A stretch of DNA of 37,866 nt from positions 1 through 37,866 of IMG/VR virus record IMGVR_UViG_3300032222_000131. One strand, given 5' to 3'. The stretch is from a virus. Of the stretch, positions 1,912-37,866 are shown piece after piece; the first letter of the stretch is position 1; each line of letters begins with the position of its first letter. The notes under the pieces were generated by a model. The model had not been told where the DNA came from. It did no database searches and saw only the letters and a list, made by a program, of their open reading frames with translations. Both the position numbers and the translations under genes were made by a program.

Positions 1912-3423
1912 TCAGACGGGGGCCGTCAGTGACGACTTCGTGATGCTGACGTTGATTTGATCCGCTACCGGCGACACGCGTGCCCCAATCTTGGCGTTAA
2001 CTTGACCCAGGCTCAACGTGGCGGCGCTGTTGATGGACGAGGACACCTCAACAGAGTAACCCCGGTCAATCTGTGCGCCCGTGTCGGGACTGAAGCCTTC
2101 ATACAGGCCACCAGCAGCCCGAATCGGATCGACTAGGCCTGTCAGGATTGCCTCAATCTGCCCGAACAGGTTTCCACGTCCGTCGATGGGCGAGAACACA
2201 AGGGACTCCAGGGCGTTTTCCGCTTCGGCGGTGATGTAGTTCAGAGTGTCTCGGTATGTGATGAATCGCCAGTTGGTTTCATCTGAAGAGACAGAACGTG
2301 AACCGTATACCTGCACCTGGCCATTGATCAGTCGGACTGCGTTGATTCGATTCAGGTCTAGTTCATCGCCGTCGCTTCGACTGACGGGCGTGAAAATGCC
2401 GGTCACGTAGCGCGCTGCGCTGACCGTTCCAGCGCCCACGCGCCAGGGGCCGGAAGCAAGGTGGGCGCGAGAGCGGGCTGCTGCTGCAAATGCCTCTGGC
2501 GATTGGTCTCGCGTTGATCCTGCACCATCAGGAACCTTGACCGAAGGCCAGAAGAAGGCCATGTACGATGCGTCCGTGCGTGACGCCGCCGTACTGCCCC
2601 AGTAAGCGCGCGCTTCGGCAATCGCTGCAACTTTTGCAGTGCCAATGGCGTGACCGCAGAAGGCAATCCGACGATTGGCCTTAGCATGATCCCGGAGGCC
2701 ATTCCACGCAGTGGTGCCGCTCTGTCCGGGCATTGCGACAACGCCAGCCCCAAGATCGTAGTCGAAGTTCGCAAGCGAAGTCACAAGGTTTGCCGTGCTT
2801 GGGGTTGACTCGGTGCCACCAGTAAGGTCGTAAGTTCCGGCAATGGGAGCGTCGTTCGATGCGCCCACCGATGCAGCAATGAGTTCGGCTAGCACGGGGT
2901 CGCTATTGATTGCTTCTGCAATAGATTGCTTGGCATACTTGATTGACCCGTCCTGGAGGGTTTCGTTAGTGAACGGGCCACCAACCCAGATCGTCTCATT
3001 GAGGTACTTGATCGTTACGGTTACCTCGCCACCTGAAACCGCTACGGTTGCCGTGAGTCCATACTTGAGCGGGCTGCCAGTGGTGTTCGCCCACGTCCCA
3101 GGGTTCTTTGCATTGAGGGTGAAGGACGTGCCAGCGGTCCCAGGAACGGAGGCTGAGGCAGAGGCCTGGGTTGTGCCTAGAGCACGCACGACATAGCAGC
3201 GAGTGCCGCCCTCTTCAAAGAAGGTCTTAACGCTGTCCCAGAGGGTGAACGAAGACGAGTACGTGCCGTAGATCGACTCAAACTGACTCATGCCCAAGAC
3301 GAGGCGCGCCCGGTCAGTGGGGCCACGAAGGGCGGTACCGGTGATGAAAAGAGCCGATGCTGGGCCAGCACTATTGCCGCTGGGGCCTACTCGGACCCCG
3401 GTCGTAACTTTGATGCCTACCAT
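1912..3423 (-). CDS. Tail sheath protein
   Basis: This 503-aa protein is the clearest sign of a contractile tail. The N-terminus has the usual sheath pattern GVRVGPSGNSAGPASALFITGTALRGP, written here only as its first 15 residues plus a pause: GVRVGPSGNSAGPAS then ALFITGTALRGP. Next comes a segment ending FFEEGGTRCYVVRALG (about 88-103). The C-terminal third holds WRFITYRDTLNYITAEAENA (about 385-404), then a domain with PIRAAGGLYEGFS and a final beta-strand-rich tail (GYSVEVSSSINSAATLSLGQ). These are features of the Mu L / T4 gp18 family. It would polymerise round the tail tube and contract on infection. The ATG overlaps the end of the previous gene by one base. Confidence 0.93.
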   Translation of the reverse strand: MVGIKVTTGVRVGPSGNSAGPASALFITGTALRGPTDRARLVLGMSQFESIYGTYSSSFTLWDSVKTFFEEGGTRCYVVRALGTTQASASASVPGTAGTSFTLNAKNPGTWANTTGSPLKYGLTATVAVSGGEVTVTIKYLNETIWVGGPFTNETLQDGSIKYAKQSIAEAINSDPVLAELIAASVGASNDAPIAGTYDLTGGTESTPSTANLVTSLANFDYDLGAGVVAMPGQSGTTAWNGLRDHAKANRRIAFCGHAIGTAKVAAIAEARAYWGSTAASRTDASYMAFFWPSVKVPDGAGSTRDQSPEAFAAAARSRAHLASGPWRVGAGTVSAARYVTGIFTPVSRSDGDELDLNRINAVRLINGQVQVYGSRSVSSDETNWRFITYRDTLNYITAEAENALESLVFSPIDGRGNLFGQIEAILTGLVDPIRAAGGLYEGFSPDTGAQIDRGYSVEVSSSINSAATLSLGQVNAKIGARVSPVADQINVSITKSSLTAPV

Positions 3424-3746
3424 CAGTTCTCCTTTGACGCCCTCTTACGAACAGGCTTGACGCCTTCTGCTTCACCTGTAGCGTCGTCCTCTCCCAAAAC
3501 TTCATCGGGAGAAACCTCGGCTGTTGATTCCAAATCATTTGATTCGGCATCGCTGGTTGTAGATTCTGGCATTAGTGGAGCGCTCACTGGCGCAACAAGG
3601 GCAAGAAAGCCATTTTCAATGGCTAGTTGCGCACGGGGGTCAGCCAAGTCGACCTCCCCAGTGGTATGCCCGCCAATCACCGTGCCATCAACGGATGCCA
3701 CGATCGGAATTGGCTTCATGTTGAAAACTACAACTTTGCTGCTCAT
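3423..3746 (-). CDS. Small protein upstream of tail sheath, acidic C-terminus
   Basis: This 107-aa protein is not recognised as a named family. Residues 1-55 form a compact beta-type stretch (KVVVFNMKPIPIVASVDGTV, then a GEVDLADPRAQLAIENGFLA segment). Residues 60-95 are strongly acidic and Ser/Thr-rich, and the last ten residues are basic (KPVRKRASKEN). It lies between the tail terminator candidate and the sheath and overlaps the sheath start by one base, so co-translation is likely. Small proteins in this slot are common in myophages, but I cannot assign its role. Confidence 0.7.
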   Translation of the reverse strand: MSSKVVVFNMKPIPIVASVDGTVIGGHTTGEVDLADPRAQLAIENGFLALVAPVSAPLMPESTTSDAESNDLESTAEVSPDEVLGEDDATGEAEGVKPVRKRASKEN

Positions 3747-3757
3747 GATGAATCACC

Positions 3758-4360
3758 TTATCGTATTCCGTCCCAGTCCAGGGAAACCGTCTCAATATCA
3801 AACTCAGAAACACTACCATTGTGGTCTCGCATGATTGTCTCATTGAGGGAAAACTCGTAAGCAATGAATGCTCCGGCAACAATTCTGTCGCCTTTTACGT
3901 AGGTGAGGTCGCTCCACTCTTCTTTCATAGTCGTCTCGTCAAGCCGAGACTCAACATTAATTGACGGAAACCATTTTTCTTCACTTCTCACCATGGATGG
4001 GTGGTCCAAGAGCGCAGACCTAACAACGGCAGTAAGTCTGTCTCTGGTTTCCGTAACTTCTTCTGGGCCGATACCCCTCACCCAGACGTAGGTTCGGAGG
4101 TTATACGTCACCCTGTAGACGGGGTCTGCAGAGAAGTTGATGTAATCAACACGCTCTAGTTTTGAGGTGCCCATCTGGATCGTGGTAATTGTTGGCCAGT
4201 GGTCCAACCCAAGAGGCTCATGTGAAAGGAAGAGTTCTGGGGTTGGGAGCCTCTCGTCGTCTAGTTGCCAGTAGTTTCGATACTTGACCAACCTTTCCGG
4301 AATGTCAAGTTTCAGGTACTGGGTCACAAACTTCTTTGCCTCCCATGGTCCTTCCATCAT
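3758..4360 (-). CDS. Probable tail terminator / tail completion protein
   Basis: This 200-aa protein starts ATGATG at 4355-4360 and overlaps the previous gene by 4 bases. The middle shows the alternating strand pattern of tail terminator proteins: VDYINFSADPVYRVTYNLRT (about 71-90), YVWVRG, then a helix (EVTETRDRLTAVVRSALLDH). The C-terminus has a VKGDRIVAGAFIAYEFSLNE strand pair. Such proteins cap the tail tube and join it to the head. Sequence is poorly conserved in this group, so the call rests on gene order (connector, gpS/HK97 gp10-like, this gene, sheath) and on size. Confidence 0.6.
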   Translation of the reverse strand: MMEGPWEAKKFVTQYLKLDIPERLVKYRNYWQLDDERLPTPELFLSHEPLGLDHWPTITTIQMGTSKLERVDYINFSADPVYRVTYNLRTYVWVRGIGPEEVTETRDRLTAVVRSALLDHPSMVRSEEKWFPSINVESRLDETTMKEEWSDLTYVKGDRIVAGAFIAYEFSLNETIMRDHNGSVSEFDIETVSLDWDGIR

Positions 4361-6073: not shown

Positions 6074-6625
6074 CTAACGATCGGCGTTCGGGGGTTTCTC
6101 TAAGTCGGGAGGGGAAACTACGGTGGCAACGCCAGCGGGTTGTTCTACCGGAACCCAGGCACGTGAGTAAGTATGTTCTTGCGCCTTCTTGAGTTTCAAT
6201 AGCCGAGGGTTGCGAACCATGTCAAACTCATCGTCGGTCATGCCGAGCATTGCTCCAATTTCATCCTCTGGCACGCCAACCGAAATCAGGTTCTCAACTA
6301 GACCGGAAAGGTTCTTAGCGGCCAGCGAGCCTCGCCCTCGGTTCAATTGCACGTGGAGCGTCATAGCCGTGGGGTCGTCACAGTCAATAAAGTGGACCGG
6401 AACATTTGCACCATGCTTGGTGCGATAATTTCGATCCGAATCAGCAATGACCCATCTAACAAATCCATCGATGATATGGGAAGTGCTCAACTGGACAAGT
6501 AGTGGTGTCAGGATCCCAAAGTTGGTAACGGACGACCGAAGGAGCCTGAAGTCTGGCGAAAGAATGTAGGTAGCCAGCCAAGGCGCTGGCTTGACTGCTG
6601 TCGTCTCAACCTGTTGGATTTTCAT
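6074..6625 (-). CDS. ParB/sulfiredoxin-fold protein (IbrB-like)
   Basis: This 183-aa protein overlaps the PAPS-reductase-like gene by 4 bases (ATGA). Residues about 10-65 follow the ParB N-terminal pattern: a short N-terminal strand, FGILTPLLVQLS, then IIDGFVRWVIADS at 51-63, matching the usual I-x-D-G-x-x-R-W box. A helical part follows (about 85-150). Proteins of this fold act as ParB-like NTPases or nucleases, or as unknown partners in phage and integrative elements. The pairing with a PAPS-reductase-like protein recalls IbrA/IbrB. Catalysis cannot be read from the sequence. Confidence 0.75.
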   Translation of the reverse strand: MKIQQVETTAVKPAPWLATYILSPDFRLLRSSVTNFGILTPLLVQLSTSHIIDGFVRWVIADSDRNYRTKHGANVPVHFIDCDDPTAMTLHVQLNRGRGSLAAKNLSGLVENLISVGVPEDEIGAMLGMTDDEFDMVRNPRLLKLKKAQEHTYSRAWVPVEQPAGVATVVSPPDLEKPPNADR

Positions 6626-7770
6626 GACACGTCCTCGCTGTAGAACTCAACGTTTTCCATTTCGGCAGACCGAACACTATGCGCTTTTGTCTTGGGACCA
6701 ACGGGAGTTACTGCCGTAGTGGCAAACTCGTTGAGTAGAAGTGTCCGAATGAGCCAGTTCACCGGGTATGAAAAGGGGTCGCTTGCCCACTTCGTCCGAT
6801 ACCTGCCAGCAAAAGAATTGGCGAAATGCTTCATCACGTCGTCTAGCATGTTGTCCTCAATGCATTGCTTGACGCCGTTCCACCCAGCGCTGGCATACAT
6901 CTGAATCAGGGCCTCCACGTCAATCTCCGCCCAGAGACGCCTCTGCGCATCGATGTGGGGGAATGCTTGATACAGATCATCGTAGAACTCTGGTTCAGTG
7001 ACGACTACGTCACCGAGTCTACGAATGGCTACAGAATGAAGAGGGATCCCAACACGTGAGTTTGAGCCGGTCATCTCAGCAAGGTCGTAGTATTCGCAGT
7101 ACGAAGCGTCGTGCTCGTCGATGATGAACTTCATCACGTCGTTTGCTGTCCAGTCATAAATTGGCTTGATGAAGCGCAACGGAACCGTCTTGGACATGCC
7201 GTAAGGTCGAACGATGTAGTTCTCATGCAGTTTCTGCACGCATGACCTGTAGCGAACCATGCTCTCGTTCGCCCTCACACCCATAACGAAGGCCGTCATG
7301 CCTGACCGACCCTCAAGGGTGTAGTGATCGATCAACTTTGGGAGAGGCATATCCATCGGGAGTCCAAAGTCCTCTGCGGTAATCGCCCACTCCGGCATTG
7401 GCCGAACCAGCCGATCCTCCATGCCCCTGAATGGATCCCAAAGAAGAATCGTCTCGCGACGACCAAGCACCCACACTTCTTGGATTGTGGGCAGGCAGAA
7501 CCACTTCATGTCCACCCAGTCGTAGTTGCGGACCTCTTCCACAAACTTCACGACGGATGGTGAGACCATCTCTTCATCTCGGAAGATCACTCGCACTGGG
7601 CCGAGGTCTCGTTCTTCGTGGATCTCTTTGGCTAGATAGAGAATCGCTGTGCTGTCTTTGCCTCCGGAGAACTGCACAACCACATTGTCAAACTGGTCGT
7701 AGACGTGGCGCATCCGCTCCCTGGCAGCGTCCACACAGGACATCTCCAGAAACATTCGTTGACGAGTCAT
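6622..7770 (-). CDS. PAPS-reductase-like ATP pyrophosphatase (IbrA/DndC-like)
   Basis: This 382-aa protein has the PP-loop SGGKDS at residues 35-40 (VVVQFSGGKDSTAILYLAKE), which binds ATP in PAPS reductases, DndC and related enzymes. It then has VRVIFRDEEMVSPSVVKFVE and a C-terminal half with RFIKPIYDWTANDVMKFIID (about 200-219), the usual substrate-side segment. It is longer than a classical CysH (about 240 aa). Overlaps with both neighbours put it in one operon with two ParB-like proteins. In phages such proteins are often of unknown role; sulfur transfer to nucleic acid or a regulatory activity as for IbrA are options. The family call is firm, the substrate is not. Confidence 0.9.
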   Translation of the reverse strand: MTRQRMFLEMSCVDAARERMRHVYDQFDNVVVQFSGGKDSTAILYLAKEIHEERDLGPVRVIFRDEEMVSPSVVKFVEEVRNYDWVDMKWFCLPTIQEVWVLGRRETILLWDPFRGMEDRLVRPMPEWAITAEDFGLPMDMPLPKLIDHYTLEGRSGMTAFVMGVRANESMVRYRSCVQKLHENYIVRPYGMSKTVPLRFIKPIYDWTANDVMKFIIDEHDASYCEYYDLAEMTGSNSRVGIPLHSVAIRRLGDVVVTEPEFYDDLYQAFPHIDAQRRLWAEIDVEALIQMYASAGWNGVKQCIEDNMLDDVMKHFANSFAGRYRTKWASDPFSYPVNWLIRTLLLNEFATTAVTPVGPKTKAHSVRSAEMENVEFYSEDVS

Positions 7771-8138
7771 TTCGCTTCCATGAGTAGCATTAGTTTCTTT
7801 GCCCGAACCGAGGGTTCCGTAGAGACAAAAGAACCCTTCCTTGCTGCAGCATAGTTGATCTTTTTCTTGAATTGTCCTGCAGTTGGATCGATCACCTTGT
7901 CCGCAGCATCCACCAAAAACACATGCACTTCTTTACACCCCTGAACGTCAAGAAACCTGACCTTGAGTCCAGACCGAATCCCACCACAAGCGTGATAAAT
8001 CGCTTCAGAAGCAATGTACGACAGTCCAGAGTAGGGGTTGGACTCATCGGCGTATCGCTGCCCCCTGAGTGCAGCGAGGTCGCCAGAAACAGTCAGTGCG
8101 TCAATCTTTTTAGTCAGGCTAAGCGGATTGAGGCTCAT
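7767..8138 (-). CDS. Small papain/transglutaminase-like protein with Cys-His-Asp pattern
   Basis: This 123-aa protein shows C51 (YHACGG), H72 (EVHVFLVD) and D84 (VIDPTAGQF) in the order and spacing seen in papain-fold and transglutaminase-like proteins, where an H-x-[WVF] strand is followed by a D-x-T-x-x-Q-[FY] segment. I read it as a possible cysteine peptidase, deamidase or amidotransferase; the identity of the substrate is open. It overlaps the PAPS-reductase-like gene by 4 bases and the small gene before it by 4 bases, so the products are likely made together. Confidence 0.5.
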   Translation of the reverse strand: MSLNPLSLTKKIDALTVSGDLAALRGQRYADESNPYSGLSYIASEAIYHACGGIRSGLKVRFLDVQGCKEVHVFLVDAADKVIDPTAGQFKKKINYAAARKGSFVSTEPSVRAKKLMLLMEAK

Positions 8139-8350
8139 ACCTCCACCCCTGGGAAGGAGTCCTCGGGCGGATACGAGTCAAAAGCCGACGAAAGAGCATC
8201 CTGGTACATCTTCCAGGCTGTCAGTTCACACTCAGGGTGCATGTACGCCTCAAAGTCAACGTGGAGGTAGGGACTTGATTCACCACATACCAGACATGGA
8301 TGCGACGTTGCTGCGGTAATGAAACTGTGCCACCTGACGTTGTTACTCAT
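8135..8350 (-). CDS. Small putative zinc-binding protein
   Basis: This 71-aa protein starts at ATG 8348-8350 and overlaps both neighbours. It has C19-x-x-C22 (HPCLVCGESS) and, further on, H38-x-x-C41 in YMHPECELTAW, a likely zinc site. The rest is short helix and an acidic Pro-containing tail. I do not recognise a named family. Tight overlap on both sides supports that it is a real gene of the operon. Confidence 0.65.
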   Translation of the reverse strand: MSNNVRWHSFITAATSHPCLVCGESSPYLHVDFEAYMHPECELTAWKMYQDALSSAFDSYPPEDSFPGVEV

Positions 8351-8624
8351 CGTCTTCTGCTGACAGAAGAAGCAGAAGGTTCTGCAGTTCTTCGTTGGTC
8401 AACTTAGCCGTCAGCGTCACCGACCTGACCATCGCTCCGGTGTCCTCGTCCCACTTCTCGCTAGATGCACAGATAGTGGAACCACTCACGAGGACCCTCA
8501 TGGTTCCCTGAATCTCGTTGATCCAGGAAGCCAACCATCTGATTTCATTTCTTTTGTCGCATAGCGCCTCGTCGGTGCCATGCTTAGCAATTCCGTAGAT
8601 CTGATTGTATGGCGGCGTCTTCAT
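8343..8624 (-). CDS. Small hypothetical protein of the ParB/PAPS operon
   Basis: This 93-aa protein starts at ATG 8622-8624, where the stop of the preceding ParB-like gene overlaps it (TAATG). It has a helical N-terminus, a central strand pair (GTMRVLVSGSTICASSE) and a Leu-rich acidic C-terminal helix (NEELQNLLLLLSAEDDE). No family is recognised. Confidence 0.65.
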   Translation of the reverse strand: MKTPPYNQIYGIAKHGTDEALCDKRNEIRWLASWINEIQGTMRVLVSGSTICASSEKWDEDTGAMVRSVTLTAKLTNEELQNLLLLLSAEDDE

Positions 8625-9439
8625 TAGAAATCTCCGTGTGCTTCAAGGAAGTTTAGTAGTCGTTCGGCAATCGTATCACCCTCATATACCGAGGACGCTC
8701 GGAGGAACTTGACGAAATCCCACCAACGAGTCACTTGGTCGGTGTCGTCAAAAACGAGCGTGTACTGAACTGCTGCACGCTTGGCGTTGGGTGATTGTGA
8801 GGTTGCGCCCCCAACACCGCCAATGACAGTGGCCCGATTGTCAACATCTGCTGGCGCTACGAGTCGTACCCCGCTGTCGGATTCATCATCCCTCACGGCC
8901 ATTGGGGTGATTGATGGTGCTGTTCGGACTAATTCCGGAACATCGACAATAACTTCAGGAGCAACGTACCCCTTCGCCTCGCGAGTCTCCGACACGTTGA
9001 TAGCGGTGTCGATGTCGTCAGCGAGTCCTGCAATCTCGTACTCGTCCCATCCCAAAAACTCCATAAGTTCAGGGAAGTATTCATGTACCTGAACAATGGA
9101 CTCGTACAGTAACTCTTGGTCGTAATCGCCCAGGTCTGTGACTTGATTGTCGTACAGGGCAAAGGCCGTCGCTTCCGCCGAGTCCATGCCTGCGTCCTGA
9201 ACGGCGGCGATCCGTGTCCATCCAAGTTGCTTTGCTGCTTCTGTTGTGTGGTTACCGGCCAGGATAGTGAACCGGCCATCACCATTTGGCCGCACAACAA
9301 TTGGCTTAAGTTGGCCAAATCGCTCAAGACTGGCGGCGATGGCCACCACGTCACCGCGCCGAGGGTTCCCGGGCAGTGGGTCCAAGAGGTCAATATCTAC
9401 AGCCAGGGGGGTGAGGCTTTCATGAATCGCGTGAGTCAT
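8624..9439 (-). CDS. ParB-like nuclease-domain protein
   Basis: This 271-aa protein has a clear ParB N-terminal domain in residues about 10-110: DLLDPLPGNPRRGDVVAIAA (the N-P-R-x-x box), FGQLKPIVVRPNGDGRFTIL, then AGNHTTEAAKQLGWTRI at 61-77, the variant G-N-H box used by many phage ParB-like proteins. The next segment DSAEATAFALYDNQVTDLGD matches the continuation of this family. The C-terminal third (about 160-271) is unassigned. It may bind or cut DNA, or act as an NTPase switch; it is one of two ParB-like proteins in this operon. Confidence 0.85.
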   Translation of the reverse strand: MTHAIHESLTPLAVDIDLLDPLPGNPRRGDVVAIAASLERFGQLKPIVVRPNGDGRFTILAGNHTTEAAKQLGWTRIAAVQDAGMDSAEATAFALYDNQVTDLGDYDQELLYESIVQVHEYFPELMEFLGWDEYEIAGLADDIDTAINVSETREAKGYVAPEVIVDVPELVRTAPSITPMAVRDDESDSGVRLVAPADVDNRATVIGGVGGATSQSPNAKRAAVQYTLVFDDTDQVTRWWDFVKFLRASSVYEGDTIAERLLNFLEAHGDF

Positions 9440-9774
9440 GTTTGGTTTCTTACGTTTGCAGCAATTGTGCGCAAGGCATCAATTTGAGTCTTAATGGAAG
9501 ACAGTCGCTCGCGCCCAGACTTAACCAGCGCTTCAGCGATCTTGTAGTCCATGGCGACTTCCTCCATGCGAACGTCTGCCCAGGCCTCGCGCTCCTTAAT
9601 TGACCCCGTATGCGAGAGATACGACTTCGCCCATTCAGCCTTGTAGCGGGCGTCTTTGATCGCACTGTCAAGGGATAGTTGTTCAAAATCCTCAGTGCGG
9701 GATTCTAGTAGGTCAACCAGTCGAAGCATTTCCTGCTCTACTTCAACCTGACTGATGGGCGCTCGGAAACTCAA
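9436..9774 (-). CDS. Small coiled-coil protein
   Basis: This 112-aa protein starts at a TTG (9772-9774) that overlaps the resolvase stop as TTGA, with GGAGA upstream. It is almost wholly helical with heptad-like Leu spacing (QVEVEQEMLRLVDLLESRTE, and later SGRERLSSIKTQIDALRTIA). The central part, DARYKAEWAKSYLSHTGSIK, resembles small phage proteins found near recombination genes, but I cannot name the family. Confidence 0.65.
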   Translation of the reverse strand: MSFRAPISQVEVEQEMLRLVDLLESRTEDFEQLSLDSAIKDARYKAEWAKSYLSHTGSIKEREAWADVRMEEVAMDYKIAEALVKSGRERLSSIKTQIDALRTIAANVRNQT

Positions 9775-10322
9775 CGTATCTCCTTACGGTAGGCATTGTC
9801 TAAGGGGGTCCAGTCTACCTTGTCAAGGGCGCTCATGTTCAGTACGGGCCACTGATATCTCGGGCGACCAATATGCGCCAAACCACATTCCTCCAGAATG
9901 AAGGCATCGCACATGTCGTCCGCTCCAGGGCCACTCCAGACAATGCCGGTTCGCGCTGAGATAGATGACAGCACCTCACCCTTGCTGGCGTTGCCCTTGC
10001 CGGTTGCAAACTTTGCGCGAACAGTGGGGGGAACCACAACAAAAGGGATCTGCTCAATGTAAAGGGCGCGACGAATCACTCCGCCCAATTCGCCAATTGA
10101 GTGTGCCTGAGAGTTTTTGCTCCCGAACGAATATCCCTCAACGATTACGCAGGGTTGCTCATGTTCAGGCTTGTTGTAAAGGAAGCGCAGGACGGCTTCT
10201 TCAATGTCAATGAGTCGCTCTACGCCCTTTAACTTGGAGGAAATGGCCTCCATTGATTTGCCGTGACAAATCCCCGTAGAGGTGAGCGAAAGGTCAAGAC
10301 CAACAACATCAACGTCTGTCAT
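9771..10322 (-). CDS. RuvC-like Holliday junction resolvase / RNase H-fold nuclease
   Basis: This 183-aa protein has the RuvC layout: first strand VVGLDLSLTSTG with D10, second acidic residue E62 in CVIVEGYSFG, a PTVRAKFATGKGNASKGEVL region and a C-terminal GADDMCDAF with D136 and D139. These match the four acidic residues of RuvC. It would resolve branched DNA in recombination or before packaging. It is the first gene after the long non-coding stretch and starts a chain of overlapping genes to 6074. Confidence 0.85.
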   Translation of the reverse strand: MTDVDVVGLDLSLTSTGICHGKSMEAISSKLKGVERLIDIEEAVLRFLYNKPEHEQPCVIVEGYSFGSKNSQAHSIGELGGVIRRALYIEQIPFVVVPPTVRAKFATGKGNASKGEVLSSISARTGIVWSGPGADDMCDAFILEECGLAHIGRPRYQWPVLNMSALDKVDWTPLDNAYRKEIR

Positions 10323-10350
10323 GGTTTGATCATACCCTTAAACGCGAAGC

Positions 10351-10376
10351 GGGCCACCCGCATATGCAGGTGGCCC
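10351..10376 (-). terminator. Near-perfect 26-base palindrome before resolvase gene
   Basis: GGGCCACC and GGTGGCCC flank GCATATGC with one C/A mismatch. As RNA it would form a strong hairpin and could end a short transcript starting near 10630, though no T run follows. As DNA it could instead be an operator for the resolvase operon that starts 29 bases further on. Confidence 0.45.
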
Positions 10377-10636
10377 ACCCCAGAAAGAGAGAACTCGCTT
10401 GGAGGGACTTTCCTTACCCTCAAACCAGGACGAAGCGTCGGAATCAGCCCAATACCTGGTTACCCTGCAGTCCAGTCACGGAGAATTACCAAACGATGAC
10501 TAGTCGTTTGCCCCATCTCACCGGATCGGCCTGATGGGTGCTGTAACCCTGCAGTTGCTTTACCCCCACGCTTCGCAGCAAGGTTGTTCAGCCACAAACT
10601 CCCTTGGGATGCCTCCCTCGGTTGTCCTCGCAAACA

Positions 10637-10665
10637 ACTGTAGCGACCCCAAACAGGAAATGCAA
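10637..10665 (-). promoter_or_regulatory. Candidate promoter for the non-coding RNA / resolvase operon
   Basis: On the minus strand TTGCAT, a 17-base spacer and TACAGT fit a housekeeping-type -35/-10 pair (four of six matches each). It lies just downstream of the HNH stop and points into the non-coding stretch. Confidence 0.4.
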
Positions 10666-10682
10666 CTCGGTCCTGAAAAAAA

Positions 10683-11093
10683 TTAGGACAACCAGGAGGG
10701 CTGAACCTGAAGAGGCCATCCCCCCTCAGATATGGCGGTCCGCACCGCTGCCGCTTCTAGCATCATGTCGCCGGTGGCCCACGAAGGAAGCAGGGCACCT
10801 ACCGACTCCCCTTCTGCTGGGTGCGTGGTGATGCGGTTATGACACGGACGGCATAAGCACATCAAGTTTCGCTCATCCAAGATGGAGCCACCCCGCCCAC
10901 GTGAAATGACCTCATGAACATCCATTGAGGGGATTCTTTTGTAGGTGGCCTTACCGTCGATCACGGCAAAAATTGGACAGGCTTCGCACCACGGCTTTTC
11001 AGTGAGAAGGCGCTGAACAAGCGGGCGACGAAGTTTGTAAATCTCCTCGCGCTTTTTGGATCGCTTATTCAGGGGAGAACGATTGAGTCCCAT
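10683..11093 (-). CDS. HNH endonuclease
   Basis: This 136-aa protein has a full HNH motif: DVHEVISRGRGGS with H60, then ILDERNLMCLCRPCHNRITT with N76 and H85, plus zinc-type cysteines C36-x-x-C39 (PWCEACP) and C81-x-x-C84. The N-terminus is basic (KRSKKREEIYKLRRP). Small HNH proteins near terminase genes often help DNA packaging, but a homing or defence role is possible. The ATG at 11091-11093 lies inside the end of the glycosyltransferase gene, a 25-base overlap. Confidence 0.85.
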   Translation of the reverse strand: MGLNRSPLNKRSKKREEIYKLRRPLVQRLLTEKPWCEACPIFAVIDGKATYKRIPSMDVHEVISRGRGGSILDERNLMCLCRPCHNRITTHPAEGESVGALLPSWATGDMMLEAAAVRTAISEGGWPLQVQPSWLS

Positions 11094-14702: not shown

Positions 14703-17700
14703 TCAAACGATGATAGTGGCCCGCTTGCGCTGAGGCAACCCAAGTCCCGTCAGGTAAGTGTATGCGCCCACGGCAGAGTCAACTTGGTCATCGTGTGGGC
14801 AGGCTTCGGGGAACGCCGAGAACTCATCCAGCCATTCAGTGAGCCACGACGCGCGAACCACGCGAACGAGACCGTTCGCTACGGCCGACGCAAATGGCCG
14901 AGCGCGAGTTTCCTTGTCTCCGGTTGCACGGATGCCCATCACGTCGTAGCCGGGAACAACGAAGCGAGCGAATTGATCAGCCACCATCTTTCCAGCAGAT
15001 CCTGGCTCCACCTCAAATCGAATGGCGACAGCAGGGCCATCCTCGTAAGCGGTCTGTGCAACCAGGTGCTCAACCTTGTCTGGTCGCACGCGAGCGCGCC
15101 GAACATCAATGATGTAGGTGAGGCCCTCGTCAAAGAGGGCCAGCGTACCTACAGTCCAGTCGGGGTCGCTATTGCTTTGGCTGACCTCAGTGGCGGCAAA
15201 GTCCCAGAAACGCACGAGGCGAGCCGTCTTGCCGACCATGCTAGGCACCTCTAGAGGGTCAATGACGATGAAGTCCTCACGTTGGAACAATGAGCCAAGA
15301 CTAGTGACCCACCAGTCGCCCTCTTCTAGTCGCCGTCGTTCAACTGGGTCAAGTGCTTCTAGTGACTTGCGATAACTGGCAGCATCGATACCTGGGTTGT
15401 CACTCAACTTGGATGGTACGAAGATTCGTCCGTGCTCGCGACCCTCCACGATGAATCGTTGTCGAACCCAGTTGGGGGCTGGGTTTGATCCAGACCTCAT
15501 GCGAAGCGGAACACGCGATAGGGGGCCAGAGGAGGGGCGACGAAGACGAGAGAAAAGGTACCGGTAATCGGTTTCGCGAATTTCAGACACTTCGTCCATG
15601 CCGATAAATTGAAGTTCACTGTTTCCTGTCCAGACAACACGCCCATTGTGGCGAGACAGGAATGTATGGTGCGGCGGAACTGTTAAGCAATAAACTTTTC
15701 CGGCATAGTGCTCAGTGATGATTGGCCGATTATCGATACTCAGACTGATGCTGGTGTCTCGGTCGGCGCAGTGCAGAAGGTAGACGTGGAACGCCACAAC
15801 GTCATGCTGCTTGCCGTCCGGCGTAGTCGTGCGATCGTGACGCTCATCCAAGGTCGCCCGGAATCCGCAGTGCTGGGCCAGTCGCATCACGCCATCGGCC
15901 AACTCGCGTGACACGGTGACGTAGTGAGCGCTCGTGGGGCTTCGCCACGTCCCATCGCCCTCAACAAGCGACTCAAGAAGAAGTCGGGCGTACTGGGCAT
16001 TCCAAATGAACACCTCGTCAGGGATGCGCTTGTTATGGGCACCTTTGCCAGTGTGCTCATTTAGCCACGCCGCCAGTTTGCCGTTCGTAAACTGGAGGTA
16101 GCGGGCATTGTCGTAGACATGCGCTCCCGAGCGCCCGAGAAGATCCTTGATGGCGTCTTTATGAACCCTGCTATGAGAATCATGAAGCGCAATGTGAACG
16201 GCTGAGCCGCTGGTGCAACCTTCAGCAATGTACCAGCCGAGAAGGGTCGCCCAGTCCTCAGCGGTAAAAACTAGGTCTTTGGAAAGTTGCCTACCGCCAG
16301 CACTTCGGGGAAACAGGGCTACGCCAGGATCGATGCCCCCAACAAAATGAGCGGCCTGAGGGAAACGGGCCACCTTCGGTAATTCGTCAGTGCGATACTT
16401 CTTTAGCGTCTTGACGCGTTGGGTGGAGGCCCACCAAGTGTGGTCCCCGGTGACTGAGAACGAGACATCGGATCCCGCTCTCGGGCTATATAGCGGGCCA
16501 TCGTGGTCGTACTCCCAAAGTTTCACAACCGCTTGGTAGTCCCACTCGCGAGTCTCGGGGTTCATTGATGCGACCATGTCGCCTACCTGGACTTCCGCTA
16601 TAGGCTTCCACCCGGAGCATGTTAGCACATCTGTTGACGGATTACAAGGACCTTTGTAGCGTAAATAATCATCTTTGTTGTTCAGATAACCAAATGAGAT
16701 ACGCGCACCTGACGGAAATGTTGCCTGCATTGTGTTGCTATTCCATCGAATGTCATCATATGGTGCAATCCAGTCACGAAAACGGTCCATGAGGGCACCA
16801 GGAAGCGTTAAGTCAGCCAGCGTGCGGCGAAAGAGCATGGCGTTGTAGCCAGGAACGTCAACGAATTGGAGAGCGGCCATGAGCAAGGCGGACGAGTTAT
16901 GGGTAACGATGTGGCTATCTTCACAAATGTAAAGACCATTTGGATGATCAACAGTGATGCAGACGGTTTCTTGCGGTTCTACGGGTTCAACTAGAACTAG
17001 GCGTCTTATTCCTGGCTGTTGCGGCTCTAAGCATCTATCCCGTTTTCGCGTAAGCCTGAACAACTCTTTGGCACAACGTCCCGTTGCAGTCACCGTATAT
17101 GCGCGTTGACACTCAATTCTTACTCCCTGTTTGTTAACGTATGAGCCAATCTTGCTAGTAAGGGTCGCCTTGTGCCCCAAAGACCAAAGAAGTCGCTGGA
17201 CCCCCAAGGCAAGTTCTTTTGAGATGGAAGTGTAAGAAGCGTGTCCGCGGTCATCTACGGTGCCGTCAGTATCGAAGAGTCCACGCAGAATATCTTGGCG
17301 GTAAGCCAGAGGGGCTGTGAAGTATTGTTCGGGAATAGCCTTTGCATCAGCGCAATGGGTGACGCCAAGTTGTTCAAGTGTTTGCCACAACTTAGAAGGG
17401 ATTGGGCCTGCGTGTCCCGTCTTAAAACGATAATTATACGGAGGGCTGAAGGTGAGTGACATTTCGTTCGCTTCTACCCAGTTTTGGACGTACGCCACAA
17501 TTTCTTCGTCGGCACTTGCAAATGAAATAGACTTGTTGCTGTTGCCACCCATGGAGCCATCACCAAGCAAGACACCTAGAACATATGAATCGATGGGGAA
17601 GGTTGCCTCAATGTTTCGATAGGCGCGAGTGTGCTGCGTTGGTTCGCAAAGTGGAATTAACGCCCACTCCGGTCTTGTTCCATTGAACTTTGCTTCAATA

Positions 17701-18137
17701 GCCTTATCTGTGAAAACTTTCATCTGTGGTGTGGTGGCAATCTTCCAGTCGATGTCACGCTTTACGCGCTTGCCCGAAAGTCGATACCTCCATAAGTGGT
17801 CGGCGTCAGTCACGGTTGTTGCGCCGTCACTAAAAGTGAGTCTGTAGCACGGCTGTACGCCTTTTTTTGTTACGGCTATAACTGTGCTTGCGCCCCCTTC
17901 TGGGTTTGTCACTCGGTCCCCAACCTTGAGATCACCTAACATTTTGTATCCCATTGGCGTCACGATAGGTGTTGTGGTACACTGTCCTTTTCCGCCGCCA
18001 GCCGCTCCGCCGAATAGAGCCTCAAGGGCGTTGGTGCGCAGAAAGACCTGCTGCTGCATGCTGGGTGCTTCCGGAGCGTAAGGGGGGGGCTTCGGCTTTA
18101 GGTACTCAAGTACTGATTCCCAATTTTGGCTTTGCAA
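14703..18137 (-). CDS. terL: Large terminase subunit with two inteins
   Basis: The 1144-aa precursor starts at TTG 18135-18137 with AAGGA seven bases upstream. Two inteins interrupt it; removal gives a 440-aa terminase, a normal size. N-extein residues 1-52 end FGGAAGGGKGQ (Walker A region). Middle extein residues 415-497 run from SSALLMAALQ to LRYKGP. C-extein 840-1144 starts SELQFIGMDEVSEIRETDYR with the Walker B box (FIGMDE). The RNase H-fold nuclease follows: VRFWDFAATE, FEVEPGSAGK, CPHDDQVDSAVGAYTYL. It is the packaging motor and cuts the concatemer. It faces away from the portal gene. Confidence 0.95.
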   Translation of the reverse strand: MQSQNWESVLEYLKPKPPPYAPEAPSMQQQVFLRTNALEALFGGAAGGGKGQCTTTPIVTPMGYKMLGDLKVGDRVTNPEGGASTVIAVTKKGVQPCYRLTFSDGATTVTDADHLWRYRLSGKRVKRDIDWKIATTPQMKVFTDKAIEAKFNGTRPEWALIPLCEPTQHTRAYRNIEATFPIDSYVLGVLLGDGSMGGNSNKSISFASADEEIVAYVQNWVEANEMSLTFSPPYNYRFKTGHAGPIPSKLWQTLEQLGVTHCADAKAIPEQYFTAPLAYRQDILRGLFDTDGTVDDRGHASYTSISKELALGVQRLLWSLGHKATLTSKIGSYVNKQGVRIECQRAYTVTATGRCAKELFRLTRKRDRCLEPQQPGIRRLVLVEPVEPQETVCITVDHPNGLYICEDSHIVTHNSSALLMAALQFVDVPGYNAMLFRRTLADLTLPGALMDRFRDWIAPYDDIRWNSNTMQATFPSGARISFGYLNNKDDYLRYKGPCNPSTDVLTCSGWKPIAEVQVGDMVASMNPETREWDYQAVVKLWEYDHDGPLYSPRAGSDVSFSVTGDHTWWASTQRVKTLKKYRTDELPKVARFPQAAHFVGGIDPGVALFPRSAGGRQLSKDLVFTAEDWATLLGWYIAEGCTSGSAVHIALHDSHSRVHKDAIKDLLGRSGAHVYDNARYLQFTNGKLAAWLNEHTGKGAHNKRIPDEVFIWNAQYARLLLESLVEGDGTWRSPTSAHYVTVSRELADGVMRLAQHCGFRATLDERHDRTTTPDGKQHDVVAFHVYLLHCADRDTSISLSIDNRPIITEHYAGKVYCLTVPPHHTFLSRHNGRVVWTGNSELQFIGMDEVSEIRETDYRYLFSRLRRPSSGPLSRVPLRMRSGSNPAPNWVRQRFIVEGREHGRIFVPSKLSDNPGIDAASYRKSLEALDPVERRRLEEGDWWVTSLGSLFQREDFIVIDPLEVPSMVGKTARLVRFWDFAATEVSQSNSDPDWTVGTLALFDEGLTYIIDVRRARVRPDKVEHLVAQTAYEDGPAVAIRFEVEPGSAGKMVADQFARFVVPGYDVMGIRATGDKETRARPFASAVANGLVRVVRASWLTEWLDEFSAFPEACPHDDQVDSAVGAYTYLTGLGLPQRKRATIIV
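15621..16646 (-). other. Intein 2 of large terminase (before Walker B)
   Basis: Precursor residues 498-839, 342 aa. It starts with C498 (CNPSTDVLTCSGWKPIAEVQ then VGDMV, block A), has a VTGDHTWW block B and ends HNGRVVWTGN before serine 840 (block G). Inside is a LAGLIDADG-type endonuclease: LLGWYIAEG (first motif, with E as the acidic residue) and LLESLVEGDGTW (second). It interrupts the conserved Y-K-G-x-S region upstream of Walker B. All splice residues (C, block B TxxH, HN, +1 S) are present, so it is likely active. Confidence 0.9.
16896..17981 (-). other. Intein 1 of large terminase (inside Walker A)
   Basis: Precursor residues 53-414, 362 aa. It starts with C53 (CTTTPIVTPMGYKMLGDLKV then GDRV, block A), has VTDADHLW as block B, and ends EDSHIVTHN before serine 415. 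A LAGLIDADG homing endonuclease is present: VLGVLLGDGSM and ILRGLFDTDGTVD, each with its acidic residue. It sits in the ATP-binding loop. Splicing must occur before the terminase can bind ATP. Confidence 0.92.
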
Positions 18138-35314: not shown

Positions 35315-35674
35315 ATGGACATCATGGAACGACTGCGGTACGAAGCGTGGCGGAACCCGGCCGAAGGTGAAACCGCTGACGCCCACTACCTCGCCGCCGA
35401 TGCACTGGACGAGATCGAACGGCTACGGCGTTGGAAGGCCGAGGCGACCATCGTGCTGAATCAATGGAATGAGATCGCTGGAGATGTGAACCGCCTCCAC
35501 GCAGCCGACTATCTCGGCCGAAGCCTCCCCGACATTGTTGCCACCAACCTCGCCGCCGAGCGTGCCCTGACCGACCAGTTGGCCGACGCGATCCTCTCGG
35601 CATCCGTCGAAGAAGCCATTGAAAAGACAGACGCTGCCCTCGCTGCATATCAGGAGGCTCGTCGTGAGCGGTGA
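35315..35674 (+). CDS. Array gene 1, coiled-coil protein
   Basis: This 119-aa protein starts at ATG 35315 with GAGG upstream. It begins MDIMERLRYEAWRNPAEGET, holds DALDEIERLRRWKAEATIVL and ends EARRER. The frame is longer upstream, but the ribosome binding site fixes the start. It is helical throughout and of unknown function. Its stop overlaps the next gene by 11 bases. Confidence 0.7.
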   Translation: MDIMERLRYEAWRNPAEGETADAHYLAADALDEIERLRRWKAEATIVLNQWNEIAGDVNRLHAADYLGRSLPDIVATNLAAERALTDQLADAILSASVEEAIEKTDAALAAYQEARRER

Positions 35675-35939
35675 CATAGTGGAGCGGCTGCGGCTGCTGG
35701 CAAGGATGTACCCGCTGTGGGGTGAAGTCAAGACCCGTTCTAACGAAGCCGCCGACCTGCTTGACTTCATCGAAGGCGTGATCCGTAACGTAGCGCGTGA
35801 CCTGTACGCCGCCGAGGTCCGTCGTCAAGGCGTTGGATGGGATGAGCATTGCACTGATCTACTCGTGCGCTCACAGCATTCGCTGACAGAAGTGCACGCG
35901 CTCCTACTCCATCCCAAGGAGGCCCGCCATGAGCAGTAA
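35664..35939 (+). CDS. Array gene 2, MSGDIVERLR-type protein
   Basis: This 91-aa protein starts at GTG 35664, after GGAGG inside the end of gene 1. It begins MSGDIVERLRLLARMYPLWG and ends LLLHPKEARHEQ. The middle has NEAADLLDFIEGVIRNVARD. Mostly helical; function unknown. It overlaps the neighbour on each side by 11 bases. Confidence 0.75.
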   Translation: MSGDIVERLRLLARMYPLWGEVKTRSNEAADLLDFIEGVIRNVARDLYAAEVRRQGVGWDEHCTDLLVRSQHSLTEVHALLLHPKEARHEQ

Positions 35940-36099
35940 AGAAAAGCGTTTGCCTTCTACTGATATCGCCCGAGCCTTTGATGTTCCGGTGTGGCTCCTT
36001 GTCGGTCAGCAGCGACCGCGTCTTTTTCGACTTCGGTGGGCACTGCGACGTTTCACTGGGTGGGATGGAAGTCGGAGGGAGGCCAGCCGTGAATGGTGA
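35929..36099 (+). CDS. Array gene 3, short basic protein
   Basis: This 56-aa reading frame begins at ATG 35929 in the junction cassette (AAGGAGG before it) and ends at TGA 36097-36099 inside the next cassette. It begins MSSKEKRLPSTDIARAFDVP and is Arg/Trp-rich (RLFRLRWALRRFTGW) in the second half. It is easy to miss because it is so short, but the overlap geometry on both ends matches its neighbours exactly, which supports it. No family is recognised. Confidence 0.6.
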   Translation: MSSKEKRLPSTDIARAFDVPVWLLVGQQRPRLFRLRWALRRFTGWDGSRREASREW

Positions 36100-36373
36100 G
36101 TTAGACGACTGGGAGCCGATGGATGATAACTGGCTCACCCACTACGCCGCCATGTCTCGCCATGAGCGCAGGTTCAATGATTTCAGTGGGTCAACGGTTC
36201 GGCAGTTGGCCATTGAAGTGCAGCGGCTGCGGGCCGAACGCGAGGCCATCGACGCCCTGCACCAGCCCGTTACATCAGGCGAAGACGACGAGGTGTGTGA
36301 CGAATGCGTCTTCTTCTGGCCGTGCCGAACGCACGTCCTGCTCCACCCCGAGGAGGCTAGCCATGAGCGGTGA
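36089..36373 (+). CDS. Array gene 4, coiled-coil with Cys cluster
   Basis: This 94-aa protein starts at GTG 36089 (MNGELDDWEPMDDNWLTHYA). It has RQLAIEVQRLRAEREAIDAL (coiled coil) and CDECVFFWPCRTH near the C-terminus, which could bind a metal. It ends EEASHER. The longer open frame runs back into gene 3; the cassette start is preferred. Confidence 0.7.
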   Translation: MNGELDDWEPMDDNWLTHYAAMSRHERRFNDFSGSTVRQLAIEVQRLRAEREAIDALHQPVTSGEDDEVCDECVFFWPCRTHVLLHPEEASHER

Positions 36374-36596
36374 CATCGTGTACAACATCTGGGCCGATCC
36401 GTCTACTGCGGTCGAACTTGACCGTCTGAATGCCGAGATCAAGCGGCTGCGGACCGCTGGCGATGCGCTAGCGACCAACTTGCAACAGATGGAGGATCTC
36501 TACCACTCCCGCACCTGCAAGGGGATGAATACCGAGCGCATCGACAACTGCACATGCTTGCTTGCTCTCGCCGCCTGGCAAGAGGCGCTGTCATGA
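36363..36596 (+). CDS. Array gene 5, MSGDIV-type coiled-coil protein
   Basis: This 77-aa protein starts at ATG 36363 (MSGDIVYNIWADPSTAVELD). It has AEIKRLRTAGDALATNLQQM and a C-terminal C-x-C. It carries an 18-base stretch (36456-36473) identical to one in gene 7. Its stop overlaps the next start by 4 bases (ATGA). Confidence 0.7.
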   Translation: MSGDIVYNIWADPSTAVELDRLNAEIKRLRTAGDALATNLQQMEDLYHSRTCKGMNTERIDNCTCLLALAAWQEALS

Positions 36597-36916
36597 CGAC
36601 AATTCAGGACTGGCTCAACGTAGAGGTGCGGTGTACTGCTGGACAGCAGAACGATCCGACCGGCACCTGCACTCGCCACACCTCTCACCACTGGTGCATT
36701 CATTGTGAGGGGTTTTACGGAGTACCTCATGACGGACGGTGCCATACGGCGGCAGTTCGTAGGGACATGCACATCATTGGTGTCGGGACTCCATCCCCCG
36801 GCCGGTGCGCATGTCGTTACTGCAAGACGTGGGAAGAGTCCGGGTATGAAGCAGCGGAAGCAAGGTTCCGAGGCATGGCCTCCACCAACAACTACAGCAA
36901 GAAGGACGACCTATGA
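36593..36916 (+). CDS. Array gene 6, Cys/His-rich protein
   Basis: This 107-aa protein starts at ATG 36593 (ATGA overlap). It has many Cys and His residues: CTRHTSHHWCIHCEGFYGVP (about 27-46), then PSPGRCACRYCKTWEESGYE. These suggest one or two zinc sites. It does not share the MSGDIV start or the EARRER end and may be an insertion in the array. Function unknown. Confidence 0.7.
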   Translation: MTTIQDWLNVEVRCTAGQQNDPTGTCTRHTSHHWCIHCEGFYGVPHDGRCHTAAVRRDMHIIGVGTPSPGRCACRYCKTWEESGYEAAEARFRGMASTNNYSKKDDL

Positions 36917-37125
36917 ACAACGAAGCCGACTACATCAAGGTATTCGACGAGGCGATCGAACTGCAGTGGGCCGACGAGATCAAGCGGCTACGAGCAAAAG
37001 TAGAGCGCCTGAGCGACGCTGGCGATGCGCTAGCGGAATTGGCGTGCCAGCGCCCCGACACCACGACCGTCGGGGACTGGGGCGATGCCCTTGTCGGCTG
37101 GCTGGAGGCCCGCCGTGAGCGGTGA
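36913..37125 (+). CDS. Array gene 7, coiled-coil protein
   Basis: This 70-aa protein starts at ATG 36913 (ATGA overlap). It begins MNNEADYIKVFDEAIELQWA, has DEIKRLRAKVERLSDAGDAL and ends WLEARRER. The segment encoding AGDALA matches gene 5 exactly over 18 bases (37018-37035), a sign of recent duplication or recombination. Confidence 0.7.
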   Translation: MNNEADYIKVFDEAIELQWADEIKRLRAKVERLSDAGDALAELACQRPDTTTVGDWGDALVGWLEARRER

Positions 37126-37453
37126 CATCGTGGAGCGGCTGCGAGACGCCGAAGACCCTGCAGAGTGCTGGGGCTGCAAAGAGTGGGGCTGCCGCTCAAC
37201 GTGCGACTGCGACTGCCACGCCCTCGGCGGCATCGTCAGTGACGCCGCCAACGAGATCGAACGGCTGCGTGCCGAGGTGGAGCGGTTGCGTGTGTTGGTC
37301 GCTGGAGCGCCACGGCGCACAGCCGAAATCGAACGGCTGCGTGCCGCTGTGGATCGGTTGTGCTTAGCGCTGCTCCCGCTGTCTACCGCTGGAGAGCAGG
37401 CCGACATAGATGAACTGTTCGCAGCGATCAAGGAGGCCCGTCGTGAGCGGTAA
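37115..37453 (+). CDS. Array gene 8, MSGDIVERLR-type protein with Cys cluster
   Basis: This 112-aa protein starts at GTG 37115 (MSGDIVERLRDAEDPAECWG). Residues about 18-36 have CWGCKEWGCRSTCDCDCH, a dense Cys/His cluster. Two heptad blocks follow (ANEIERLRAEVERLRVLVAG and AEIERLRAAVDRLCLALLPL). It ends EARRER. This is the most complete member of the family. Confidence 0.75.
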   Translation: MSGDIVERLRDAEDPAECWGCKEWGCRSTCDCDCHALGGIVSDAANEIERLRAEVERLRVLVAGAPRRTAEIERLRAAVDRLCLALLPLSTAGEQADIDELFAAIKEARRER

Positions 37454-37697
37454 GTTGGACAGCAACGAATGGTTGATCAGAGAGTTAGAGTCATACGACT
37501 GTCCTGGTAATTGGGCCTACTGTTCAGACATTGCCATGCGTGCCGCTACTGCTTTGCATCTTGCCGAAGATATCATTGAAGCCAAAAATGCGGAGATGGA
37601 ACGGCTGCGGGCTGAGGTTGAGCGGCTGACGGACGAGTTGCAGCAGGTCGCCAACGAGATTGCATTAGCCGAATCCCAGGAGGCCCGTCGTGGGTGA
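37443..37697 (+). CDS. Array gene 9, coiled-coil protein
   Basis: This 84-aa protein starts at GTG 37443 (MSGKLDSNEWLIRELESYDC). It has AEMERLRAEVERLTDELQQV and ends SQEARRG, where the cassette has GGG TGA instead of GAG CGG TGA. Function unknown. Confidence 0.7.
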   Translation: MSGKLDSNEWLIRELESYDCPGNWAYCSDIAMRAATALHLAEDIIEAKNAEMERLRAEVERLTDELQQVANEIALAESQEARRG

Positions 37698-37866
37698 CTA
37701 CTCAGAAGTGCTACAACAAATGAAAAAAGTGATTGAGGATACTGTTGTGAATTCAACAGCGACCTCTGAGTCCATACTTGCCACTATAGCCAGGAGAACC
37801 ATTATGACCAGTGAATACACACCCCAGGTCGGTGACCGAGTACGCCAACCGGACTGGAAGGACAGC
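37690..37866 (+). CDS. Array gene 10, partial (cut by window edge)
   Basis: The frame opens at GTG 37690 in the last junction cassette (MGDYSEVLQQMKKVIEDTVV) and is still open at the right edge. A second in-frame ATG at 37804 (MTSEYTPQVGDRVRQPDWKD) has AGGAG seven bases upstream. The start may be either; a short leader product or an N-terminal extension is possible. Confidence 0.5.
   Translation, partial: MGDYSEVLQQMKKVIEDTVVNSTATSESILATIARRTIMTSEYTPQVGDRVRQPDWKDS

Follow-up and report, generated by a model that had tools for sequence, protein, structure and literature searches.

A ten-gene array joined by a recurring cassette

We analyzed a 37,866-nucleotide stretch of viral DNA (positions 1 to 37,866 of IMG/VR virus record IMGVR_UViG_3300032222_000131), referred to below as the window. 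From position 35315 to the contig end, the window is occupied by ten small, overlapping forward genes (g1 to g10), and most of their junctions carry the same short sequence, which we call the cassette. The overlap is 11 bp at six junctions (g1/2, g2/3, g3/4, g4/5, g7/8, and g8/9), 4 bp (ATGA) at g5/6 and g6/7, and 8 bp at g9/10. At seven of the nine junctions, GGAGG is followed by 6 nt and then by the start codon. These results confirm an array of overlapping mini-genes with a recurring junction, as a preliminary description of this DNA had claimed. The start motif given there, GTGAG or ATGAG, is exact at five of the seven junctions, but the remaining two read GTGAA (36089) and GTGGG (37690). 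Likewise, the proposed C-terminal ending EARRER-stop is exact in g1, g7, and g8, but variants (EARHEQ, EASREW, EASHER, and EARRG) are found at the others. The N-terminal sequence MSGDIV is exact in g2, g5, and g8.

The 22-bp consensus of the cassette is GGAGGCCCGTCGTGAGCGGTGA. All seven copies in the window are on the forward strand. Cassette 1 (GGAGGCTCGTCGTGAGCGGTGA, 35653 to 35674) holds the g1 stop together with the ribosome-binding site (RBS) and start of g2 in an 11-bp overlap, and it has one mismatch to the consensus. Cassettes 5 (GGAGGCCCGCCGTGAGCGGTGA, 37104 to 37125) and 6 (GGAGGCCCGTCGTGAGCGGTAA, 37432 to 37453) also have one mismatch each, and cassettes 2 (GGAGGCCCGCCATGAGCAGTAA, 35918 to 35939), 3 (GGAGGCCAGCCGTGAATGGTGA, 36078 to 36099), and 4 (GGAGGCTAGCCATGAGCGGTGA, 36352 to 36373) have four. 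Cassette 7 (GGAGGCCCGTCGTGGGTGACTA, 37679 to 37700) resembles a second type described below, with an 8-bp overlap and the ending -EARRG-stop. The 14-bp core GGAGGCCCGTCGTG, allowing up to three mismatches, occurs seven times in the 2.9 kb from 35001 to the end, versus 0.21 expected under a first-order Markov null (300 runs, maximum 3).

A second repeat lies inside the genes. This heptad code (GAGATCGAACGGCTGCG) is present at 35408, 36432, 36973, 37250, 37322, and 37590, and an exact 18-base match (GCTGGCGATGCGCTAGCG) links g5 (36456) to g7 (37018). Both repeats had been noted in the preliminary description, and both were found again here.

Gene g1 (35315 to 35674; 119 amino acids [aa]) is a two-parent chimera. 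Gene g2 (35664 to 35939; 91 aa) starts with MSGDIVERLR, and g3 (35929 to 36099; 56 aa) has the lowest coding score in the array. Gene g4 (36089 to 36373; 94 aa) ends in a C-x2-C..C-x-TH-LLHPE module that is common to other phages carrying the cassette; it also stands immediately 5' of a cassette in contigs G004, G007, G009, G010, G018, and G021. Gene g5 (36363 to 36596) encodes 77 aa. Gene g6 (36593 to 36916; 107 aa) has ATGA overlaps at both ends, without the cassette. Clustering and alignment place g7 (36913 to 37125; 70 aa) in a DIVERLR-type family, F1. Gene g8 (37115 to 37453; 112 aa) has a cysteine-rich middle and two heptad codes. It is followed by g9 (37443 to 37697; 84 aa) and by g10 (37690 to 37866), which runs off the contig and has an alternative in-frame ATG at 37804.

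The cassette is conserved as DNA and is entered in two frames

At the nucleotide level, the cassette is a gene junction: GGAGG as the Shine-Dalgarno (SD) sequence is followed by a constant spacer of 6 nt and a GTG start codon, and stop codons are included. The stops are placed so that an upstream gene ends within the cassette in either of the two non-fusing frames, and the next gene starts at the same place. Cassettes of the consensus type (type A) end the upstream protein either as -EARRER-stop, with an 11-bp overlap, or as -GGPS-stop, with a 4-bp overlap. The second type (variant B) gives -EARRG-stop and an 8-bp overlap. Among 69 cassette junctions, the 11-bp, 4-bp, and 8-bp classes number 33, 27, and 9, respectively. 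Base conservation is about equal between the 11-bp and 4-bp classes.

The same C-terminal modules are found joined to the cassette in both frames, through a 1-nt difference. The LLHPE module continues as LLHPE-EARRER in G010 but as LLHPE-GGPS in G004 and G009, and the ATDVG module continues as ATDVG-GPS in G001 but as ATDVG-ARRER in G006. Because identical modules enter it in both frames, the cassette is conserved as DNA and not as peptide. The earlier view of the cassette as one coding, stop, RBS, and start unit needs one correction: the cassette is not conserved as a C terminus, since it is read in two upstream frames (-EARRER-stop and -GGPS-stop).

The spacer is also conserved. Among strong-SD starts, a spacer within one mismatch of CCCGTC is found at 60 of 76 in the arrays and at 1 of 24 elsewhere in the carriers (Fisher p about 3e-11), although the in-array figure is inflated because the arrays were found via the cassette. 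No such spacer is present at 28 strong-SD starts in the 80 best capsid relatives of the window phage. GTG is the start codon in 68 of 79 cassette genes versus 158 of 543 other genes, and conservation extends past the start codon and over the upstream stop. Judged by these comparisons, the conserved spacer is not explained by a generic RBS constraint. With such a design, each new arrangement of genes would remain translatable and coupled in whichever of the two frames the upstream gene arrives.

The cassette is found in unrelated phages

We scanned 2.9 million viral contigs (IMG/VR) for the cassette pattern. The type-A scan found 22 stretches in 21 other contigs. When the whole carrier records were examined, there were up to eight cassettes per contig, on a single strand only. 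A reversed-pattern control gave no matches in 22 records, versus about 75 for the true pattern. Bacterial and archaeal genomes (257 Gb) gave five lone matches in unrelated taxa, which is about chance level. Looser scans found variant B (GTGGCTGACGA / GGAGGCYCGYCGTGGCTGACGA) in eight further contigs, and the arrays of G004, G008, and G021 mix both types. After merging of duplicates and overlapping contigs, the cassette stands at gene borders in about 17 type-A and 8 type-B phages, with the window phage counted. G004 is not independent of G018/G019, since it is an overlapping contig of the same phage. Searches of IMG/VR with peptide patterns found no relatives of g8. In a 74% GC contig (L069), three copies of GCGGGAGGCCAGCCGTGAGC lie at gene starts within 470 bp (7005 to 7475); these are perhaps a third cassette type.

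The packaging modules of the carriers are unrelated: the portal belongs to phrog_12/2662 in G010 and G020 and to phrog_64 in G021, and G007 has a phrog_38 terminase. We did not find the cassette in the available flanks of the 80 capsid relatives mentioned above. Therefore, the cassette tracks the array and not the phage lineage. The carriers range from 37 to 68% GC. WhiB is encoded in 11 of 18 carrier records, and among 14 control genomes the WhiB search matches only Corynebacterium. On this basis, the hosts of most carriers are probably Actinobacteria.

Genes change from cassette to cassette

Two sister phages, G017 and G020, are 91 to 95% identical across long stretches. They have in common a left gene (MTKDELYP..GGPS-stop), a gene X (94%), and at the right a WhiB gene (96%). 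X adjoins WhiB in G017. However, in G020 a 204-bp gene, Y, stands between them with a cassette at both ends, and the first half of Y is 95% identical to a postcassette gene in the unrelated G007. The clade of G006, G008, G010, G017, and G020 keeps the left gene constant, with WhiB at the right wherever it is seen (four of the five). The differing genes between them number two in G010, four in G008, five in G017, and four in G020.

We then compared the neighbors of homologous genes. A neighbor was conserved across a cassette in 0 of 22 cases, versus 72 of 129 at other junctions (Fisher p 1e-7 over all homologous pairs, which are not independent). Within G017/G020 alone, the figures are 0 of 3 and 30 of 39 (p 0.02). 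These comparisons of array length and order bear out the expectation that arrays of relatives differ at the cassette, including by a cassette-flanked single-gene insertion or deletion.

Exchange is also seen between dissimilar phages. G009 and G021 have one gene in common at 91% identity; the match takes in the whole cassette at either end of the gene, with little similarity around it. L215 has 37% GC, but its array has 59%, and 261 bp of this array are 98.9% identical to L182 (45% GC), ending at a cassette. Along the L215 contig, of about 0.35 GC, the GC-rich region (0.56 to 0.63) extends from 8800 to 10800, and the open reading frame at 9846 to 10211 is a fusion of pieces present in L182.

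The preliminary description had suggested that arrays grow by recombination at the cassette. Change at the cassette, with frame and coupling kept, agrees with that proposal, but in-place duplication is not the main source. We rejected tandem duplication in that role because, with cassettes masked, within-array repeats in type-A carriers are few and short. L182 has a 135-bp exact repeat (2198 to 2332 and 3325 to 3459, in reverse orientation of the locus) that runs from the heptad code through the cassette into the next gene; on its sequence, this is one recent in-array copy. Array variation would seem to arise mainly by exchange with a pool common to phages and by half-gene swaps at the heptad code, over duplication.

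In G002, G007, G008, G010, G015, G016, G017, and G020, unrelated phages included, a WhiB gene immediately follows the array or is located inside it; in G002 it is about 1.4 kb further on from the array. Arrays may thus be targeted to whiB or cotranscribed with it.

The heptad code is a second joint inside the genes

The N module of g1 (35318 to 35427) is 94.5% identical to L199 (5021 to 5130), and its C module (35407 to 35586) is 93.9% identical to G006 (817 to 996). Identity drops to 25 to 29% past each breakpoint. The two matches overlap by exactly 21 bases, at 35407 to 35427, and these bases are the forward-strand heptad code of g1 (GGACGAGATCGAACGGCTACG, encoding DEIERLR). The two parents of the chimeric g1 thus meet exactly at the heptad code. 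In g5, the match to G008 (88% over 52 bp) likewise starts at the heptad code. An N module typically extends from a cassette to ..ATCGAACGGCTGCG, and a C module typically extends from that point to the following cassette.

With cassettes masked, 67 of 232 ends of shared segments were at cassette edges, versus 8.5 at random, and 36 were at the heptad code, versus 7.0. Masking forces some segment ends at cassettes, so we repeated the test unmasked. In this test, 21 ends lay just outside cassettes, versus 4.0 expected (maximum 11 in 1,000); one of the 21 comes from the G004/G018 pair, later recognized as one phage. The predicted structure of a 67-aa DIVERLR-type protein has three helices (mean predicted local distance difference test score [pLDDT] 77, predicted template modeling score [pTM] 0.50), a model quality insufficient for a fold search. 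The heptad code sits in the middle of the long middle helix. In this model, a half-gene swap at the heptad code would preserve the helix.

Proposed mechanism and alternative explanations

We suggest that the cassette is a boundary junction for swapping small genes while keeping them translatable, and we give this explanation a probability of about 0.8. Because the same junction stands between unrelated genes, whole small genes have been gained, lost, and replaced cassette to cassette between otherwise unrelated phages, largely of Actinobacteria. The genes are themselves composites of an N half and a C half that meet at the heptad code, in the middle of the predicted long helix. The exchange could proceed by homologous recombination between short identities of 17 to 22 bp, often probably aided by adjoining homology, with general recombination of the host or phage in place of a dedicated integrase. 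The overlapping genes would be translationally coupled. The odds are about even that, more broadly, uncultured and largely actinobacterial phages draw on a pool of horizontally exchanged gene cassettes, with whole genes and half-genes combined through a frame-tolerant junction and a coiled-coil joint, without a dedicated recombinase.

Several points weigh against the boundary-junction explanation. The recombination event is deduced, and changed neighbors could stem from illegitimate joints plus selection, with the cassette kept for translation or regulation. The pairwise neighbor counts are non-independent, and the arrays were found by the cassette, so that its conservation is partly ascertained. 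No recombination gene is common to the 18 carrier records, which are fragments, so the search was not exhaustive: RecT is in one (G003 only), ERF in none, and a tyrosine integrase in five. No carriers were found among isolated phages; all are metagenomic. Among 50,697 isolated phages, we found no relative of g1 or of an array protein from G020, and a 40-bp extended cassette gave one weak chance match in isolated phages. Finally, translation of the array genes rests on coding signatures. Substitutions at codon positions 1, 2, and 3 number 42, 53, and 110 in 12 aligned pairs, by which coding constraint is present in sum, but the third-position bias is weak in several genes.

The strongest alternative is that the cassette is a regulatory start-associated sequence, read by a phage or host factor or by the ribosome, and that the shuffling is ordinary illegitimate mosaicism plus selection at gene borders. 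The start-associated sequences (SAS) of other phages are highly conserved RBS-site repeats before varied gene families, with function not known (PMC3203893, PMC7302621). The cassette contains a strong SD, and neighbors change at many noncassette junctions too (57 of 129). However, neighbors are never conserved across cassettes and are mostly conserved at other junctions of the same phages. Segment ends also cluster at the heptad code, which is a coding stretch and no start site. Moreover, the cassette spans phages of 37% to 68% GC, and its conserved bases include those after the start codon and in the upstream stop. We therefore regard this alternative as unlikely.

A dedicated site-specific recombinase with the cassette as its target, in the manner of integrons or shufflons, would account for the precise, one-orientation exchange at a fixed 22-bp site, and tyrosine integrases are present in 5 of the 18 records. 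However, integrases are in a minority, as for mixed temperate and other phages, and serine resolvase was found in none of these 18 records. By inspection the cassette has no inverted core, and its RBS, start, and stops account for the site. Exchanges occur at the heptad code as well. Such a recombinase is quite improbable. Assembly artifacts or chimeras at short repeats are least probable of all: although all carriers are metagenomic and several contigs end near the array (the window 187 bp from its last cassette), near-identical arrays with identical cassette spacings come from separate metagenomes (G007/G012, G018/G019, and L182/L204), repeats of 17 to 22 bp are far under usual assembly word lengths, and the two g1 modules, at 94%, come from phages differing in GC.

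Relation to known systems

The boundary-junction explanation places the cassette close to the boundary (linker) sequences proposed for lambdoid phages (Susskind and Botstein 1978; Clark et al. 2001, HK620), which, as summarized in PMC3029335, are short, lie at gene borders, are conserved, and are thought to guide homologous recombination and, through it, the exchange of modules. In both cases a conserved short sequence stands at module borders, with differing modules on either side in related phages. However, here one defined 22-bp sequence is at nearly every array junction in many unrelated phages, and it doubles as a frame-tolerant stop, RBS, and start. It has long been asked whether mosaicism is guided by conserved border sequences or is random with selection, and guidance is usually doubted on the ground that boundary sequences are not findable at most borders (PMC3029335). 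A boundary sequence at nearly every junction, across lineages and GC contents, makes the guided-mosaicism hypothesis directly testable with a 22-bp element.

SAS and extended SAS (ESAS) are known from cluster K mycobacteriophages (PMC3203893) and cluster EF Microbacterium phages (PMC7302621). Like the cassette, SAS is an over-conserved repeat at the RBS position, in one orientation, before various gene families of a nonstructural region. SAS has 13 bp (GGGATAGGAGCCC), usually precedes ATG, usually follows an intergenic gap of >50 bp, and is confined to its cluster (PMC3203893, PMC7302621). The cassette consensus is neither GGGATAGGAGCCC nor GGGAAAGGACCCC. It is mainly before GTG, with overlaps of 4, 8, or 11 bp; it contains the previous stop; and it is not lineage bound.

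In the Island3/Brujita gene 67-68 event, sister phages again differ by one small gene, gained or lost through a sequence of about 50 to 60 bp that they share at the 3' ends of genes (PMC3029335). That is one event in one pair, whereas here the array junction recurs. Integron gene cassettes likewise form arrays in which small accessory genes move as units through a repeated site. However, we found no linked integrase in these fragmentary records, and the site here is itself coding sequence that supplies the RBS, start, and stop. No description of this junction element turned up in literature searches. Its design is legible: a single spot both ends the preceding gene, for two of the three possible frames, and starts the next one. 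The cassette may also be a natural part for frame-insensitive operon building.

Array proteins and the window phage

The ten window proteins gave weak matches of coiled-coil type only in Pfam and PHROGs, and array proteins overall gave no matches there apart from WhiB. Family F9 has a Cys/His pattern, and some array genes encode hydrophobic peptides of 29 to 39 aa. One of these, a 29-aa single-helix mini-gene (VAEAVAEAV..ITAWFLVFGGRRER), is 91 to 97% identical across G008 (3982 to 4071), G009 (9088 to 9177), and G018 (8076 to 8165; all in cassette-strand coordinates) and ends in a cassette without an SD. The array is probably a fast-turnover set of accessory proteins for host takeover or counter-defence. 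The cassette marks a hotspot for seeking new proteins of these kinds.

Because the window phage encodes tail sheath, portal, and major head proteins, it is a myovirus. Positions 1 to 123 of the window are identical (100%) to the last 123 bases of IMGVR_UViG_3300032222_000321 (G001), and a tail gene is in frame across the seam. Each of these contigs has an array, and they probably adjoin in a single phage genome of >85 kb, a case comparable to G004 plus G018/G019. The terminase large subunit gene (14703 to 18137, minus strand) encodes 1,144 aa, and terminase matches cover mainly residues 37 to 417 and 836 to 1134. This suggests that the protein carries an intein or similar insert of about 400 to 480 aa. 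The tail gene region also encodes a PAPS reductase-like protein (6622 to 7770, minus strand) and a ParB-like protein (8624 to 9439, minus strand), both by PHROGs.

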